Origin: Bordetella genomosp. 4
GTDB taxonomy: Bacteria > Pseudomonadota > Gammaproteobacteria > Burkholderiales > Burkholderiaceae_B
Assembly: GCF_002261185.1 (NCBI RefSeq)
Contig: NZ_NEVQ01000003.1
Location: forward strand, 62,001-126,000
DNA: 64,000 bases
Direction of reading: 5' to 3'
In this document: positions 2,320 through 42,258 of the stretch, in pieces
Layout: each line of letters opens with the position of its first letter
Numbering within the stretch: the stretch's first letter is position 1
The notes under the pieces: model-generated
What the model was told of the DNA's origin: nothing
Database searches by the model: none
Seen by the model: the letters and a program-made list of their open reading frames with translations, nothing else
Position numbers and translations under genes: made by a program

Positions 2320-2368
2320 TGGTGGCCTGGGGCGGAATCGAACCACCGACACGCGGATTTTCAATCCG
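2320..2368. other. attL: 49-bp copy of the tRNA-Phe 3' end
   Basis: The 49 bases are identical to 42183-42231, which is the 3' part of the intact tRNA-Phe gene including the CCA end. Beyond 2368 the sequence departs from the tRNA. This is the displaced chromosomal 3' half left by site-specific integration. Confidence 0.92.
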
Positions 2369-2484: not shown

Positions 2485-3564
2485 TTATGCGACATGCTTT
2501 TTGCCTGGCTCGATAGCGTTCGGGGCCACCGTTTCGCGCCATCGAGCTTTGACGTATGTCTCTGTCGTGGCTTTCTGTTGGTGGCCGCATAGCATTTGGA
2601 TACGTTCTATCCTTTCGCCAGATAGCCACATGTCCGTTGCGCCTTTGCCCTTCAAGTCCCTGAACCCAAAAGATGGCATGTTCTCCATCCCCTGGCGCTT
2701 ACGAGCCTTTGCTTGGGCGCGGGTGAGCATGGACGTTATGCCACTATAGGTGTAGGCATTACCGTCAGCGGTGTGCACGATGGGTTGATGCAACACGGGG
2801 TTAGGGCCGATGGCCTGCTCGATCAGCTCCAAAAGCCTGCCAGTGAGTTCGATCTCCAAGACCTGGCCCGTCTTGTTCTGAGTTACCCGCAACACCCTTT
2901 GCTCACCTCGCCGCCGGACGTTTGCGGCTGTCCAGCCAGTCATGTCGCTTTCGGGGCGTTGCAGCGTGCGGTACACCAGCTCCATCATCAGACGAACAGG
3001 GGCGGGGGCGCAGTCATAGACGGTCAAGTACTCTTCGTCGGTGACGTATCTATCTCTGGGTCTTTCCGTATTACGCTGAATGCCGCTTGCCCGCATGCAG
3101 GGGTTGACCTTGAGGGTAGTCTTGCCCTTTCGGATGAGCCAGGAGATGCATGCGGAAAGGCAGGCCCGCTCCCTGTTGGCCCGTACGGCGCGCTGGGCTC
3201 GCTTGCCTTCGTCTAGGTATAGCTGCACCAGCTCAGGCGTAACAGCCTCCGGCGTCCGTTGGCCGAAAAAAACCTTGAGTTCGACAACGTTCTTCCAGTA
3301 GTCGTTCCGAGTGCGTTCGGCCAAATCCTTCGACGCCACTCGGGCGTCACAGTCCAACAAAAACTCATCCAGCCAATAGGCCATCGTGCCATAGTCTTTG
3401 CGGTCGCCGTTGTATATAGCGGCTTTTCGCTTGGCCTCGGTTACGTCAGTGCCTACCTTCTCCCATCGTCCGTCGCGATGTCTGTACCAGAATTTATTCC
3501 GTCGCCATGCTAACCGAGTGCCTGCGAGATTTAGCGGGTCATCGCCCGCGCGCCGCCGCCCCAT
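2485..3564 (-). CDS. int: prophage tyrosine recombinase (integrase)
   Basis: This enzyme catalyses integration and excision at the tRNA-Phe att sites. The 359-residue protein has an N-terminal arm-binding and core-binding part and a C-terminal catalytic domain with Arg203, Lys231, His328 and nucleophile Tyr337 (GHQQKATTETY). The usual HxxR box reads R302-D-L-K305, so both the His and the second Arg are substituted; a leading Arg is known in related phage integrases, and the Lys is conservative. The gene ends 116 bp from attL and its start overlaps the upstream DUF4224 gene by 26 bp. Confidence 0.93.
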   Translation of the reverse strand: MGRRRAGDDPLNLAGTRLAWRRNKFWYRHRDGRWEKVGTDVTEAKRKAAIYNGDRKDYGTMAYWLDEFLLDCDARVASKDLAERTRNDYWKNVVELKVFFGQRTPEAVTPELVQLYLDEGKRAQRAVRANRERACLSACISWLIRKGKTTLKVNPCMRASGIQRNTERPRDRYVTDEEYLTVYDCAPAPVRLMMELVYRTLQRPESDMTGWTAANVRRRGEQRVLRVTQNKTGQVLEIELTGRLLELIEQAIGPNPVLHQPIVHTADGNAYTYSGITSMLTRAQAKARKRQGMENMPSFGFRDLKGKGATDMWLSGERIERIQMLCGHQQKATTETYVKARWRETVAPNAIEPGKKHVA

Positions 3565-17253: not shown

Positions 17254-17672
17254 GCGCGATGCAGCGGAACAAAGGGGCAGCATTCGAACGCAAAGTTGCC
17301 AACTTGCTTACCGAATCGACCGGCACTATCTGGCGCAGACGTGTTCGCAATGCGCTGGGTGACAGTGATGTCGTCGCAGATGACGCCGCTTTCGCCCTCA
17401 TATCTGTCGAATGCAAGCATGCCAACACGCTTTGCCTGCCCGCGTGGTGGAGACAGGCACAAGCGCAGGCGGGCGATCAAGGGATACCCGTCCTCATCTA
17501 CCGGCAAACGGGAGCGCGAGGCGAGTCCGTGATGCTGGATGCTTATCACGTTAATTCTCGGCATTGGCCGGTGCGGGGGCGTCACACCGTCACTCTCGAC
17601 TGGGATGCCGCAATGCAATGGATGCGGGAAATGCTCCCGCTCAACACTACCTACAGCCCGGACATTATCTGA
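17250..17672 (+). CDS. phage Holliday-junction-resolvase-like PDDEXK nuclease
   Basis: The 140-residue protein starts KGAAFERKVANLL (the N-terminal acidic residue of the fold). It continues with LGDSDVVAD and then ISVECKHA, giving the D...ExK active-site pattern of PD-(D/E)XK nucleases. Its place after O and P genes and before the late regulator fits a resolvase that processes branched replication intermediates. It overlaps both neighbours by 1-4 bases. Confidence 0.7.
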   Translation: MSAMQRNKGAAFERKVANLLTESTGTIWRRRVRNALGDSDVVADDAAFALISVECKHANTLCLPAWWRQAQAQAGDQGIPVLIYRQTGARGESVMLDAYHVNSRHWPVRGRHTVTLDWDAAMQWMREMLPLNTTYSPDII

Positions 17673-18337
17673 TGAATACCACGACTATCTCTCGCGTGCC
17701 GAGTGTTGCGGCAGCAAAGCAAGAAGCAGAGCCCCTCTTTCGTAGCGCACACGCTGCGCTGACCTTTGCGTTGAATTATTCAATGCAGCAATATGACCGG
17801 CCCCTAATGAATCGGGCCATGGCAGGCCGATCTTCCCATGAAGGGAAGGGCCTTTTCGGAACGGACGGTGCTGGACAAGCAGGAATGATCCGAGCGGAGC
17901 TTGACCAACTGTTGCCTATCCACAAAGCTGTGTTGATCGCTTCGGTCGGGCCGTGGCAAGTCCCGTGCAGTTGCAAGGTTAGCTGCTGCTCTGGATGGAA
18001 ACCTAACGCCGAGTGGGAGGCAGCAATGAGCCAGTTGACCACCTTGGCTGCTGGCGCTGCGTTGTCCGGTTGTGTGTCTAATGGGCGCGTCCGTTCGGCG
18101 TTGATACAGCGCTTGCTTGGGGCAAAGGTGACGCTGGCTGAGATAGCAGAGCGGTTTGATGTTTGCGAGCGCACGGTGACGGCTCACAGCCTGAAGATCA
18201 AGCGCTGGCTGTTTGGAAGTCAAGGGAAGAGCGAAGAGGACTCGAAGCTTGGACTGCATCAGGAGGCATACGCAGCAATCACCAGGCGGCTTCAGAATGG
18301 CGGCTTGGTGGGCGAAACCAACGAATCAAATAAATGA
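17672..18337 (+). CDS. putative late-gene regulator (Q-like antiterminator)
   Basis: The 221-residue protein has a cysteine cluster (PCSCKVSCCSGWKPNAEW near residue 100) and a C-terminal helix-turn-helix (VTLAEIAERFDVCERTVTAHSLKIKRW near 155-180). It ends the rightward early operon. Directly after it come a candidate promoter, a terminator, a tRNA and the packaging genes, as Q does in lambdoid phages. Direct homology to a Q family is not certain; the assignment rests on position, zinc-like cysteines and the helix-turn-helix. Confidence 0.5.
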   Translation: MNTTTISRVPSVAAAKQEAEPLFRSAHAALTFALNYSMQQYDRPLMNRAMAGRSSHEGKGLFGTDGAGQAGMIRAELDQLLPIHKAVLIASVGPWQVPCSCKVSCCSGWKPNAEWEAAMSQLTTLAAGAALSGCVSNGRVRSALIQRLLGAKVTLAEIAERFDVCERTVTAHSLKIKRWLFGSQGKSEEDSKLGLHQEAYAAITRRLQNGGLVGETNESNK

Positions 18338-18339
18338 TG

Positions 18340-18368
18340 TTGACGGTTGCAGTTTTTTCCTGCAATAT
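18340..18368 (+). promoter_or_regulatory. candidate late promoter (PR'-like)
   Basis: A -35 TTGACG (18340-18345) and a -10 CAATAT (18363-18368) are separated by 17 bp, directly after the Q-like gene. A 6-bp inverted repeat (ATCCGT/ACGGAT) overlaps the start region and a terminator follows at 18407. This is the order promoter, pause or qut region, terminator seen in lambda. Confidence 0.4.
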
Positions 18369-18406: not shown

Positions 18407-18440
18407 AAACCCGCCCTCAAAAAAGGCGGGTTTTTCTTTT
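18407..18440 (+). terminator. intrinsic terminator between late regulator and late genes (tR'-like)
   Basis: A stem AAACCCGCC/GGCGGGTTT with loop CTCAAAAAA is followed by TTTTTCTTTT. Transcripts from the candidate late promoter would stop here unless antiterminated. Confidence 0.75.
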
Positions 18441-18491
18441 GCAGAATCCCATTGGCCCTGACTGGATAACCGGTCGGGGCCTTTTCATTTT

Positions 18492-18566
18492 CGCGGCGTA
18501 GCGCAGTGGGAGCGCGCCGGGCTCATGCCCCGGAGGTCACAGGTTCGAACCCTGTCGCCGCAACCA
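18492..18566 (+). tRNA. tRNA-Met (CAT) with initiator-tRNA features
   Basis: The 75-base cloverleaf has CCA encoded. The anticodon CAT is at 18524-18526. The first base C cannot pair with the A opposite it (C1xA72), and the anticodon stem ends in three G-C pairs (GGG at 18519-18521 with CCC at 18529-18531). Both are hallmarks of bacterial initiator tRNA. The D stem has C11-G24, which is the elongator form, and the anticodon loop reads CTCATGC. It is located just before the packaging genes. Confidence 0.85.
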
Positions 18567-18682: not shown

Positions 18683-18892
18683 ATGACCTGCCTTGGATGC
18701 GCACGTAGGCGCGAGACTCTACGACGATGGACGGACCTTGCATATGAGCGAGCACGAAGCCTCTTTAACCCAACAGCTCCTAGCAGCACTGCTGGAGAAC
18801 ACGCAGGCCCAGAACAGACTGGCGCAAGCGATAGTGAGCCAAGCGGACGCGATAGCCGACCTAGCCGACGCCGTCGCAGGTCAGCTGAATGA
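18683..18892 (+). CDS. small CxxC protein, 69 aa (uncertain)
   Basis: The N-terminal third (MTCLGCARRRETLRRWTDLA) has a CxxC pair and arginine-rich helix like some short phage proteins near packaging genes. GAGGACTC lies upstream of the ATG. The last 40 residues overlap the better-supported next gene in another frame and look non-native, so the true protein may be shorter or absent. Confidence 0.35.
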   Translation: MTCLGCARRRETLRRWTDLAYERARSLFNPTAPSSTAGEHAGPEQTGASDSEPSGRDSRPSRRRRRSAE

Positions 18893-18941
18893 TGACGACC
18901 AAGGTTCGGGTACTACGTATCTGAGCGGCGCTCCACGCTGA
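18744..18941 (+). CDS. hypothetical phage protein, 65 aa, coiled-coil-like
   Basis: The protein is mostly one long helix rich in Ala, Leu and Gln (EASLTQQLLAALLENTQAQN and then QADAIADLADAVAGQL), which suggests a small coiled-coil oligomer. Its stop overlaps the HNH gene start by one base. It is placed at the left of the packaging module. The function is unknown. Confidence 0.6.
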   Translation: MSEHEASLTQQLLAALLENTQAQNRLAQAIVSQADAIADLADAVAGQLNDDDQGSGTTYLSGAPR

Positions 18942-19279
18942 TGCCGACCAAGCCGAAGACGCACAAGGTTCGGCACGGCACGCCACGTCATGAGCCCATT
19001 GCCCCATCGTATGGACAAGGGCGAGGCGGCAGACCATGGCGCAGGCTCCGACTGATGATCCTGAATAGAGATGGCTGGCTATGCCAATGCGACGAATGCA
19101 AACGGCTTGGCCGTGTGCTCGTTGCACATGAAGTGGATCACCACATCCCGCTGTCTCGTGGTGGTACGGACGACCCTAGCAACCTGCGGGCTATCAACAG
19201 GGACTGCCACAAAGCAAAGACGCAACGTGAAGGCGGCAGGCGGTATCCAAAGCGGTCGCGCAACGCGGTTGGCACGTGA
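18941..19279 (+). CDS. HNH endonuclease of the packaging module
   Basis: The 112-residue protein contains the HNH motif: CQCDECKRLG, then AHEVDHHIPLSRGGTDDPSNLRAINRDCHKAK, with two CxxC-type metal-structure positions and the catalytic His of EVDHH. Phage HNH proteins directly upstream of P27-type small terminases are needed for cos cleavage in HK97-like phages. The position here is the same. Confidence 0.88.
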   Translation: MPTKPKTHKVRHGTPRHEPIAPSYGQGRGGRPWRRLRLMILNRDGWLCQCDECKRLGRVLVAHEVDHHIPLSRGGTDDPSNLRAINRDCHKAKTQREGGRRYPKRSRNAVGT

Positions 19280-19398: not shown

Positions 19399-19827
19399 AT
19401 GCCAAGACCCCGCAAACCTGACCACCTTAAGGTCGTTTCGGGCACGGACCAGCCTTGCAGGATGGACGGCCCGAACGCCGTCGAACTGCCATTGGTGGAT
19501 GACATTCCGCCTGCGCCTGAATGGCTGATCAATCCGGCAGCAGTTGAAGAATGGAATCGCTTAGCGCGAATTCTGTACGCAAACAAACTTTTAACCGAGG
19601 CAAGCCTGACTTCGTTGGCGCACATGTGTGCGCTGCATGGAAAGATTCGTCAGCTGTATGCAGCTGGTGAAGCTCCAACAGCCAGCATGATCGGTGCTCT
19701 TCGCGCATATCAGAACGACTTTGGCCTAACGCCGGTCGCCCAGGGAAAGGTTAAGCCCTCTGGTGAAGTGCCAGCGGCAAACGAGTTCGCTAAAAATGGC
19801 CGCCCAGGTAAACGACAAGCCGCGTGA
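19399..19827 (+). CDS. terS: terminase small subunit, P27 family
   Basis: The 142-residue protein begins MPRPRKPDHLKVVSGT, a typical P27-family opening. It continues with PPAPEWLINPAAVEEWNRLARIL, a helical DNA-recognition region and oligomerisation core. It recognises the packaging site and directs the large subunit. The gene overlaps the large terminase gene by 32 bp. Confidence 0.88.
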   Translation: MPRPRKPDHLKVVSGTDQPCRMDGPNAVELPLVDDIPPAPEWLINPAAVEEWNRLARILYANKLLTEASLTSLAHMCALHGKIRQLYAAGEAPTASMIGALRAYQNDFGLTPVAQGKVKPSGEVPAANEFAKNGRPGKRQAA

Positions 19828-21577
19828 TTATGTGGCAATCGCCATTGACTATGCGAAGGCAGCGGTAGCAGACAAAAAAAGGAAGAAATTTGGCAAGTGG
19901 ATACGGCTCGCTGCAAAACGCTTTCTTGACGACCTAAAGCGAGCGAAACGTAAGAACTCTCCATTCATCTTCGATGAGTGGCATGCCAATGACCCTTGCG
20001 ACTTTCTTGAAAAACTGCCCCACGTAGAAGGGAAGTGGGTGAATCCAGATGGTACGCCGCAGCCAAACCTTGTTTTGCACCCGTCTCACATCTTTTTCGT
20101 GGTGCAGTTGTTTGGATTTCGCAAACGCGATGGCACCGAAATACCTGACTACGGTTACTTCAGGCCGAGGCGATTCACGTCTGCGCTGTTCGCCGTAGCG
20201 CGTAAGAACGCGAAGAGCACGCTATCCGCCGGAATTCTGCTCTATTGCCAGTGCTGTGAGCCTGAAGAGGGCGCGCAGATCATGAGCGCCGCTACTACCT
20301 ACAGCCAGGCCGCGATCATCTTCAAGGTCGCCAAGCGCATGGTCGAGCTGAAGACGGCTCTTCGCGAGGCCTTTGGCTTGCAGGTATGGGCGAAGGCAGT
20401 AACCCGCTTTGAAACTGGCGGCAGCTTCAAGGCGATCCACGCTAAAGCGAGTACGCAGGATGGTTTAAACCCGTCTCACACGGGGCTTGATGAGATTCAT
20501 GCGCACAAGAACTCGGACTTGCTGAACGTTCTTACATCGGCAGCTGGTGCCCGGTCTAATCCGCTATGGCTATTCACCACAACGGAGGGATACGCAAACC
20601 CAGGCCCTTGGTCGGAAATTCGGCAGTTTGCAAGAAATCTGCTGCTCGGAGTGGTGGAGGCTGATCACTACTTGGCCTTGATATATGCGCTCGACGATGA
20701 GGATAAATCCGCTGGCTATAAAGAGGATGATGAGTTTGACGAAAGCAAATGGGTGAAGGCTAATCCACTGCTCGACATCAACCCGCACTTGATGGCGGCT
20801 GTTCGCAAAGAGGCGATTGAAGCCAAGCAAATGCCGTCGAAGCTGGCCGAGTTTCGAATCAAACGTCTGAATCGCCCTGCGTCAACAGCCAGCGGCTGGG
20901 TAGATCTGAACAAGTGGGCGAAGTGCAACGGAAAGGTTGATCTCGACTGGCTTTCTGACTATCCGTGCTGGGGAGGGCTTGACCTTGCGAGCACGACGGA
21001 CATTGCCGCGTTCAGACTGGTTTGGGTTGTTGAGGGCGTTATCTATACCCATGGTTGGCGCTGGGTGCCAGCCGATGCTGTGACTCAACGCACGGAGCGC
21101 GGCACCGTCCCGTACGCGGGGTGGGTAGAAGACAAGCACTTAATCCAGACCGAAGGCGACGTAACCGACTATGCGGTAATCGAACGCGATGTCCTGGCCG
21201 CTGTCGAGCGATTTCAGATTGAGGCGATTGCCTACGACAACTGGAATGCTGCGGACTTGGTTAATAGGTTGGTTTCCGCGCAGGTCCCCATGGTTCAGTT
21301 TGTCCAGGGGACGAAGAGCTACCACCCCGCTATGCAGGCGTTGGAGCGCGCCTATGTTGGTCGAAAGCTGGCGCATGGTGGAGACCCGATTCTGTATTGG
21401 TGCGCATCGAATCTTGTTGCCAGACGAGATGTGAATTTGAGCATGGCTCCAGACAGAAAGCGCTCGGCAGACAAGATCGACGATATGGCCGCTTTGTTAA
21501 TGGCTGTCGGGCTGGCGACAGCCAGCGAGGATGGAGAAGACCTCTCCGAATTTTTCAATAAAGCGGTGATTGGATGA
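19796..21577 (+). CDS. terL: terminase large subunit
   Basis: The 593-residue packaging motor has an N-terminal ATPase. The Walker A-like segment is FAVARKNAKSTLSAG near residue 135 and the acidic Walker B follows in the SHTGLDEIHAH stretch. The C-terminal RNase H-like nuclease is marked by the acidic GGLDLASTTDIAAF and VIERDVLAAVERF...IAYDNWNA regions. The start at 19796 is the first in-frame ATG giving a family-like N-terminus. It cuts concatemers and pumps DNA into the prohead through the portal. Confidence 0.93.
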   Translation: MAAQVNDKPRDYVAIAIDYAKAAVADKKRKKFGKWIRLAAKRFLDDLKRAKRKNSPFIFDEWHANDPCDFLEKLPHVEGKWVNPDGTPQPNLVLHPSHIFFVVQLFGFRKRDGTEIPDYGYFRPRRFTSALFAVARKNAKSTLSAGILLYCQCCEPEEGAQIMSAATTYSQAAIIFKVAKRMVELKTALREAFGLQVWAKAVTRFETGGSFKAIHAKASTQDGLNPSHTGLDEIHAHKNSDLLNVLTSAAGARSNPLWLFTTTEGYANPGPWSEIRQFARNLLLGVVEADHYLALIYALDDEDKSAGYKEDDEFDESKWVKANPLLDINPHLMAAVRKEAIEAKQMPSKLAEFRIKRLNRPASTASGWVDLNKWAKCNGKVDLDWLSDYPCWGGLDLASTTDIAAFRLVWVVEGVIYTHGWRWVPADAVTQRTERGTVPYAGWVEDKHLIQTEGDVTDYAVIERDVLAAVERFQIEAIAYDNWNAADLVNRLVSAQVPMVQFVQGTKSYHPAMQALERAYVGRKLAHGGDPILYWCASNLVARRDVNLSMAPDRKRSADKIDDMAALLMAVGLATASEDGEDLSEFFNKAVIG

Positions 21578-42182: not shown

Positions 42183-42231
42183 TGGTGGCCTGGGGCGGAA
42201 TCGAACCACCGACACGCGGATTTTCAATCCG
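42183..42231. other. attR core repeat
   Basis: The 49-bp right copy of the attachment repeat is identical to 2320-2368 and lies wholly inside tRNA-Phe. Confidence 0.92.
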
Positions 42232-42258
42232 CTGCTCTACCAACTGAGCTACCAGGCC
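42183..42258 (-). tRNA. tRNA-Phe (GAA), attR, 3' half supplied by the phage
   Basis: The complete 76-base cloverleaf has encoded CCA and anticodon GAA. Its 3' 49 bases (42183-42231) are the direct repeat shared with attL, so the gene was rebuilt by integration, with a chromosomal 5' part and a phage 3' part. Confidence 0.95.

Follow-up and report, generated by a model that had tools for sequence, protein, structure and literature searches.

An initiator-like tRNA gene ahead of the packaging genes of a Bordetella prophage and its relatives among phages

Results

Gene neighbourhood of the tRNA

We analysed a stretch of 64,000 nucleotides from Bordetella genomosp. 4 (hereafter the window), which holds a prophage of about 40 kb with an integrase gene and a 49-bp direct repeat found at 2320 and again at 42183. 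A tRNA gene lies in the interior of this prophage. The features that bear on it are listed below by position, strand where assigned, and description.

2320..2368, left copy of the 49-bp att-like direct repeat (3' part of tRNA-Phe), by repeat comparison
2485..3564 (-), integrase (phrog_1, E 2.9e-36)
17672..18337 (+), 221-aa protein in the position of antiterminator Q, with a Cys-rich centre and a weak HTH (putative role)
18340..18368 (+), promoter-like TTGACG-17-CAATAT, a putative late promoter, by locus comparison
18407..18439 (+), second, upstream terminator-like hairpin AAACCCGCC/GGCGGGTTT with a T run, found by eye and absent from the output of the script, which allows loops of up to 8
18454..18491 (+), terminator-like hairpin (stem 18454-18481, 12 pairs) with a ten-base T-rich tail, directly before the tRNA
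18492..18566 (+), initiator-like tRNA(CAT), 75 nt, CCA encoded (ARAGORN, Rfam, cloverleaf)
18693..18941 (+), small ORF of unknown function (PHROG match, phrog_2612)
18941..19279 (+), HNH endonuclease (PHROG/Pfam)
19399..19827 (+), terminase small subunit (PHROG/Pfam)
19763..21577 (+), terminase large subunit, TerL (PHROG/Pfam)
42183..42231, right copy of the 49-bp repeat, inside tRNA-Phe 42183-42258 (-), by repeat comparison

Upstream of the tRNA lie O- and P-like replication genes, a RusA-like gene and the gene for the 221-aa protein, which matched no Pfam or PHROG family at 1e-3, gave a weak HTH match below the cut-off, and is 37% identical over 202 aa to a protein in the same place at another locus (L295). 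Portal and capsid genes follow the terminase subunits downstream, and relatives of the terminase include proteins from Achromobacter and another member of the Alcaligenaceae. Situated between the att-like repeats (2320 to 42231) with phage genes on both sides, the tRNA is phage-encoded, as the original prediction had it. The same prediction placed it just ahead of packaging genes, and this is indeed the arrangement, with the HNH gene and then the terminase subunits downstream; the placement recurs in relatives. An origin of the tRNA as an att site was ruled out, as the att-like repeat sits at tRNA-Phe instead.

Initiator features of the tRNA

ARAGORN called a tRNA-Met(cat) with boundaries at exactly 18492-18566, and Rfam RF00005 matched this interval at 65.6 bits (E 4e-13, gathering score 29), in agreement with the tRNA-Met(CAT) first proposed here. 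Its cloverleaf reads CGCGGCG TA GCGC AGTGGGA GCGC G CCGGG CTCATGC CCCGG AGGTC ACAGG TTCGAAC CCTGT CGCCGCA A CCA. Position 1:72 is C1xA72, with no Watson-Crick pair, and the anticodon stem holds G29-C41, G30-C40 and G31-C39 (GGG/CCC), which are the two initiator hallmarks that had been read from the sequence originally. The acceptor stem (CGCGGCG/CGCCGCA) carries G2-C71, C3-G70 and G4-C69, which are determinants of the formyltransferase, and the CAU anticodon is combined with A73, as expected of a MetRS substrate. Two other positions depart from the initiator form, as had also been noticed: 11:24 is C11-G24 (read on the identical tRNA of L199) rather than purine11:pyrimidine24, and the loop is CTCATGC, with G37 and C38, rather than CUCAUAA.

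Folding energy was uninformative (z = -0.52 against GC-rich shuffles, 53 of 200 of which fold equally well or better). The minimum-energy structure predicted for the tRNA contains a C32-G37 pair that shrinks the anticodon loop (18522-18528 of the window) and bulges C38, which could affect decoding.

Comparison with host tRNAs

Among the 41 distinct host tRNAs, the closest to the prophage tRNA is the host initiator (78% identity), which is encoded by two identical genes (L067 and L068) and is the only one of the 41 without a 1:72 pair and the only one with a GGG/CCC stem. The two tRNAs have in common CAU, C1xA72, the three G-C pairs, G2-C71/C3-G70/G4-C69, A73 and CCA. They differ in that the host initiator has A11-T24 and loop CTCATAA, whereas the prophage tRNA has C11-G24, loop CTCATGC and a D loop two bases shorter. 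Given 78% identity and a location inside a 40-kb prophage, the tRNA is not a host copy, and such an origin was ruled out; the early claim that it is no simple copy of a host gene thus stands, and the comparison with host initiators proposed alongside it found the tRNA identical to no host tRNA or fragment. In a sample of 27 chromosomal initiators of relatives, collected by similarity and including many identical to each other, all 27 have loop CTCATAA and A11-T24, and G37/C38 is absent throughout.

The host also has two non-initiator CAT genes, L028 and L074, presumably elongator Met and Ile2. CAT is the gene anticodon of tRNA-Ile2 as well, and the prophage tRNA might therefore serve as an elongator Met tRNA or, with lysidine, as a tRNA-Ile2 reading AUA, in keeping with its elongator-form C11-G24. 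We consider this very unlikely: no host tRNA is closer to it than the initiator, the five closest include neither L028 nor L074, the non-pairing at 1:72 recurs with varied bases, and, against Ile2, G37 excludes t6A37, which the available text of PMC9976931 describes as a strong determinant for bacterial-type IleRS.

Relatives near related terminase genes

We compiled 96 TerL-related loci (80 of 201 viral loci and 16 genomic), 63 of which hold at least 2.5 kb upstream of TerL. An initiator-like tRNA occurs 0.96-2.0 kb upstream of TerL in 6 of the 63; one of these, L199, is an identical copy of this phage, leaving 5 of 62 other loci. ARAGORN called no initiator-like tRNA within 3 kb of TerL in the other 57, so the tRNA is not essential to such phages. 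Other tRNAs lie upstream of TerL in six loci, L203 and L209 appearing in both lists.

The six TerL-linked initiator-like tRNAs have CA, TT, TA, CA, TA and AA at 1:72, C-G at 11:24 in every case, and C at position 38 in five. The U1-A72 pair in two of them (L206 and L238) counts against a strict mismatch rule. Identity of the prophage tRNA to those of L203, L209, L061 and L238 is 83-92%, against 38-74% for the flanking 75-nt blocks, and a compensatory change separates the window from L209 at 49:65. A U73 discriminator, unusual for a Met acceptor, is present in the initiator-like CAT tRNAs at L203:3006-3080, L061:4022-4096 and L206:4946-5021; this feature, like U1-A72 in L206 and L238, might weaken charging or formylation. 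We also observed tRNA-Gly(TCC) genes upstream of TerL (L203:2929-3002, L205:4545-4617, L207:3588-3661 and L209:3923-3996), the D stem of some being poorly paired in our parse.

Two Bordetella phages, vB_BbrS_PHB09 and vB_BbrM_PHB04, carry 85-87% identical initiator-like tRNAs, and tRNAs are unannotated in their records. In PHB09 (L061) a terminator-like hairpin immediately precedes the tRNA, genes for BrnT, Rha, HNH and terminase follow it, and the tRNA differs from that of the prophage in U1xU72, U73 and loop TTCATAC. The PHB04 tRNA combines C1xA72 with CTCATAA, and in its vicinity are tRNAs for Asn and Pro and a tmRNA call.

Directly behind the PHB09 tRNA, at L061:4100-4631 (-), is the BrnT toxin gene with a small partner ORF. 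At the corresponding place L203 has two ORFs of similar size, and it shares the 80 bases that follow the tRNA.

Promoter-like site and hairpins

A sigma-70 promoter scan of the region found none, and a consensus terminator scan found one site where shuffles average 2.2, no excess, and so is no evidence by itself. Comparison of loci pointed to the promoter-like motif TTGAC[GT]-N17-CAATAT, which was defined post hoc from the loci that carry it and occurs in 3 of 8 loci (the window, L203 and L036), 0 of 172 wider loci and 0 of 3620 shuffles. In L203 it lies upstream of the tRNA-Gly, and a relative of the 221-aa protein is recognizable by eye further upstream. The PHB09 upstream gene was considered as a Q homologue and rejected for lack of similarity.

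By script, a hairpin ends no more than 15 nt before the tRNA in the window, L206, L290 and L061; by eye, L209 has an imperfect hairpin, L238 none, and L203 one before its tRNA-Gly. Among the matches listed in our viral scans (below), such hairpins precede 16 of 179 initiator-like tRNAs, compared with 25 of 959 tRNAs of other kinds and 38 of 3620 randomly chosen places. They are thus enriched, yet 163 of the 179 initiator-like tRNAs have none by script.

Between the hairpin and the prophage tRNA there is hardly any room for a promoter, so transcription would most likely reach the tRNA by reading through the hairpin, that is, by antitermination. Together with the Q-position protein and the promoter-like site, this arrangement makes late, antitermination-dependent expression of the tRNA likely, as we infer from the layout of the locus. 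The original suggestion that the tRNA may help late phage translation to start thereby gains indirect support as regards its late timing.

A form with anticodon CAC

A tRNA of initiator form with C1xA72, GGG/CCC, A73 and anticodon CAC (Val, which would read GUG) lies at L295:4974-5049 (-) and, identical, at L036:1501-1576 (-). L295 has the gene order of the window, namely a Q-position homologue, the promoter-like motif, a hairpin (by eye), the tRNA and TerL, with a TerL of the Terminase_3 type, another family than that of the window. L295 and L036 are identical over the 1400 and 1576 bases compared, so the CAC form amounts to one independent case. It was found at one viral locus only (L295), and in 0 of 399 genomes of the order, a sample that did not contain G023, the genome of L036. 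The available part of a Sinorhizobium prophage list has one tRNA-Val(CAC) among its tRNA-Met/fMet genes (PMC12429752).

A wider class of viral initiator-like tRNAs

Three scans of viral contigs, parsed together, gave at least 286 matches, of which 248 pass stem filters, 222 are unique and 181 have CAT; among the matches listed, 38 of 286 were left out by the parser as stem-filter failures and 26 as duplicates. The GGG/CCC stem belonged to the search pattern, so its presence in the class is no evidence. Such tRNAs are frequent in viral contigs, with one scan alone giving 74 CAT tRNAs among 126 with GGG/CCC stems (among the matches listed).

Of the 181 unique CAT tRNAs among the matches listed, 170 have G-C at 2:71 and 169 have C-G at 3:70, whereas 1:72 is a Watson-Crick pair in 19% and G-C in four. 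Where pairs 2-7 are intact, 1:72 is paired in 34 of 164 initiator-like tRNAs (17 of 66 with an encoded CCA) compared with 393 of 402 viral tRNAs of other kinds that have CCA and come from the same contigs, all among the matches listed (34/164 versus 393/402, p 3e-83, a statistic that ignores relatedness); after clustering of the listed matches at 85%, 16 of 75 representatives are paired. The mismatches are varied (CA, TT, CT, AC, AA, GA, TC and others), and this variety, alongside near-fixed 2:71 and 3:70, suggests selection for initiator function.

These observations bear on a further alternative, in which the tRNA is a processing signal of the late leader, or a decaying cargo gene with no role in translation. 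In its favour, the tRNA immediately follows, within the late leader, a terminator-like hairpin; ARAGORN calls no initiator-like tRNA in 57 of 63 TerL relatives; and the loop departs from the host form. A processing signal would have no need of compensatory changes, an encoded CCA, near-fixed 2:71 and 3:70 pairs or sustained non-pairing at 1:72, and in a relic these would be lost; we judge this explanation unlikely.

Other initiator positions vary more within the class. Among the 181 CAT tRNAs of the listed matches, 11:24 is A-T in 111, C-G in 37 and T-A in 19, the host form thus often being abandoned; G37 occurs in 12 and the exact loop CTCATGC in two. A pyrimidine at 11 is associated with a base other than A at 38 (44 of 95 versus 12 of 86 among the matches listed, p 2e-6), an association that may in part reflect relatedness and the presence of host copies in the flanks of prophages. 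The groups with and without A38 come from separate scans, so their ratio is not a prevalence.

Gene order was assessed at 43 class loci with at most two tRNAs, leaving out 11 canonical-initiator loci; 28 have a downstream ORF of at least 400 aa, and all 28 were scanned. The first such ORF is a terminase or portal protein in 14 of 28, counting two below the Pfam cut-off (L328 and L160), and in 2 of 12 lone-tRNA controls (p = 0.08), a small set in which integration-site tRNAs are mixed with others and which includes CAT tRNAs, one of them C1xA72. This is only suggestive of placement before packaging genes in unrelated phages.

Discussion

We propose that the prophage tRNA is a phage-evolved tRNA that acts as an initiator in late translation, a reading to which we assign a probability of roughly 60%. 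It starts from what the loci contain: the anatomy of the tRNA, its recurrence, the preserved non-pairing at 1:72, the near-fixed 2:71 and 3:70 pairs and the recurrent place. Host MetRS would charge the tRNA through CAU and A73, which should be enough for charging; a CAU anticodon turns tRNA-Val into a good Met acceptor (PMC9976931, in the text available). Host formyltransferase would then formylate it through the unpaired 1:72 and G2-C71, C3-G70 and G4-C69, the three G-C pairs would give it access to the ribosomal P site, and the lack of a pair at 1:72 would bar it from elongation. As the first gene behind the promoter-like site and hairpins that follow the Q-position protein, it is probably made together with packaging and structural genes once antitermination begins, and might thereby add to or replace the host initiator pool at the peak of late translation. 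The G37/C38 loop would have to be tolerated, and may make the tRNA a poor substrate for enzymes that disable the host initiator.

The same source names the 1-72 mismatch and R11:Y24 as recognition elements of the formyltransferase (PMC9976931, as excerpted), and in the absence of R11:Y24 we do not grant the prophage tRNA strict membership of the initiator family. An engineered initiator with the mismatch and the three G-C pairs and without A11:U24 still initiates and does not elongate, according to the accessible part of PMC8576571, which we count in favour of initiator function together with the fact that 1:72 is unpaired while the other stems are kept.

Codon supply, the usual explanation for phage tRNAs, is a poor fit for an initiator, since an initiator serves start codons only. 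In lambdoid Shiga-toxin phages, the Q-controlled tRNAs ileZ-argN-argO lie between antiterminator Q and the late genes; they are elongator tRNAs, thought to supply rare codons. The prophage tRNA likewise lies between a gene in the Q position and the late genes, and differs in being initiator-like rather than an elongator. Prophage tRNA-fMet genes are already in print as annotations: Sinorhizobium phiLM21-like prophages (PMC12429752) and prophage NV1.1.1 (PMC10460002) have a prophage tRNA listed as fMet, in the portions available without structure or function, and we liken them to the present tRNA by listing alone. In the literature searched, which mostly excluded subscription journals, phage initiator tRNAs appear as gene listings, and we found no dedicated study of their structure or role.

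The main benefit could instead lie in nuclease evasion, whereby an initiator survives a host toxin of the VapC type that cuts the tRNA-fMet anticodon stem-loop, and changes at 37 and 38 near the cut confer resistance. In the part of PMC8522696 available, VapC homologues cut tRNA where the anticodon stem meets the loop, tRNA-fMet is a substrate of BoVapC1, growth is partly restored by additional metZWV, and E. coli K-12 without metZWV is cold-sensitive; phage tRNAs often have altered loops that are predicted to stop enzymes of this kind (PMC10264068, in excerpt). The prophage tRNA has such changes near the cut (G37 and C38, for A37 and A38 in the host initiator). A base other than A at 38 occurs in 20 of 59 well-formed viral initiator-like tRNAs (of 74, among the matches listed in a scan that left 34-38 free) and in 0 of the 27 chromosomal initiators, and a scan of the 38-not-A form alone found the initiator pattern in 2 of 399 genomes of the order (this prophage and a tRNA cluster of G311). 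Other viral tRNAs likewise lack A38, in 108 of 402 cases (among the matches listed), as do 11 of 41 host tRNAs of every type; among viral tRNAs the change is therefore not peculiar to initiators, and drift may account for it. PF01850 (PIN), our search for VapC, matched in 9 of 14 genomes searched; these 9 are among the other 13, and this host has no match. Moreover, phages generally avoid tRNA-fMet where VapC-LT2 acts, according to the available text of PMC10264068. On balance we regard evasion as the main benefit as rather doubtful.

More speculatively, these strands might be joined. A phage initiator class may keep 1:72 non-pairing through varied mismatches while often departing from the host at 11:24 and 37/38; in the present phage and others like it, antitermination would switch on the tRNA at the head of the late operon, replacing the host initiator when it is limiting or destroyed, and the CAC form of L295/L036 could start at GUG with valine. 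As a whole we hold this combination to be possible but somewhat improbable.

Because initiator-like tRNAs recur in viruses close to where the late genes begin, two questions become directly testable: whether phages augment or take over the cell's initiation machinery, and whether their tRNAs withstand defence nucleases. Natural variation at 1:72, 11:24, 37 and 38 also supplies a ready test set for which initiator features matter.

Some minor observations accompany this survey. Two viral CAT tRNAs have C1xA72 without the full three G-C pairs, at L469:5648-5722 (-), with GTGGA/TCCAC, and L480:1129-1203 (+), with CCGGA/TCCAG. In PHB04, some 3 kb separate the unannotated Met, Asn and Pro tRNAs and the ARAGORN tmRNA call (L062:4004-5318) from a gene for the RNA ligase RtcB.
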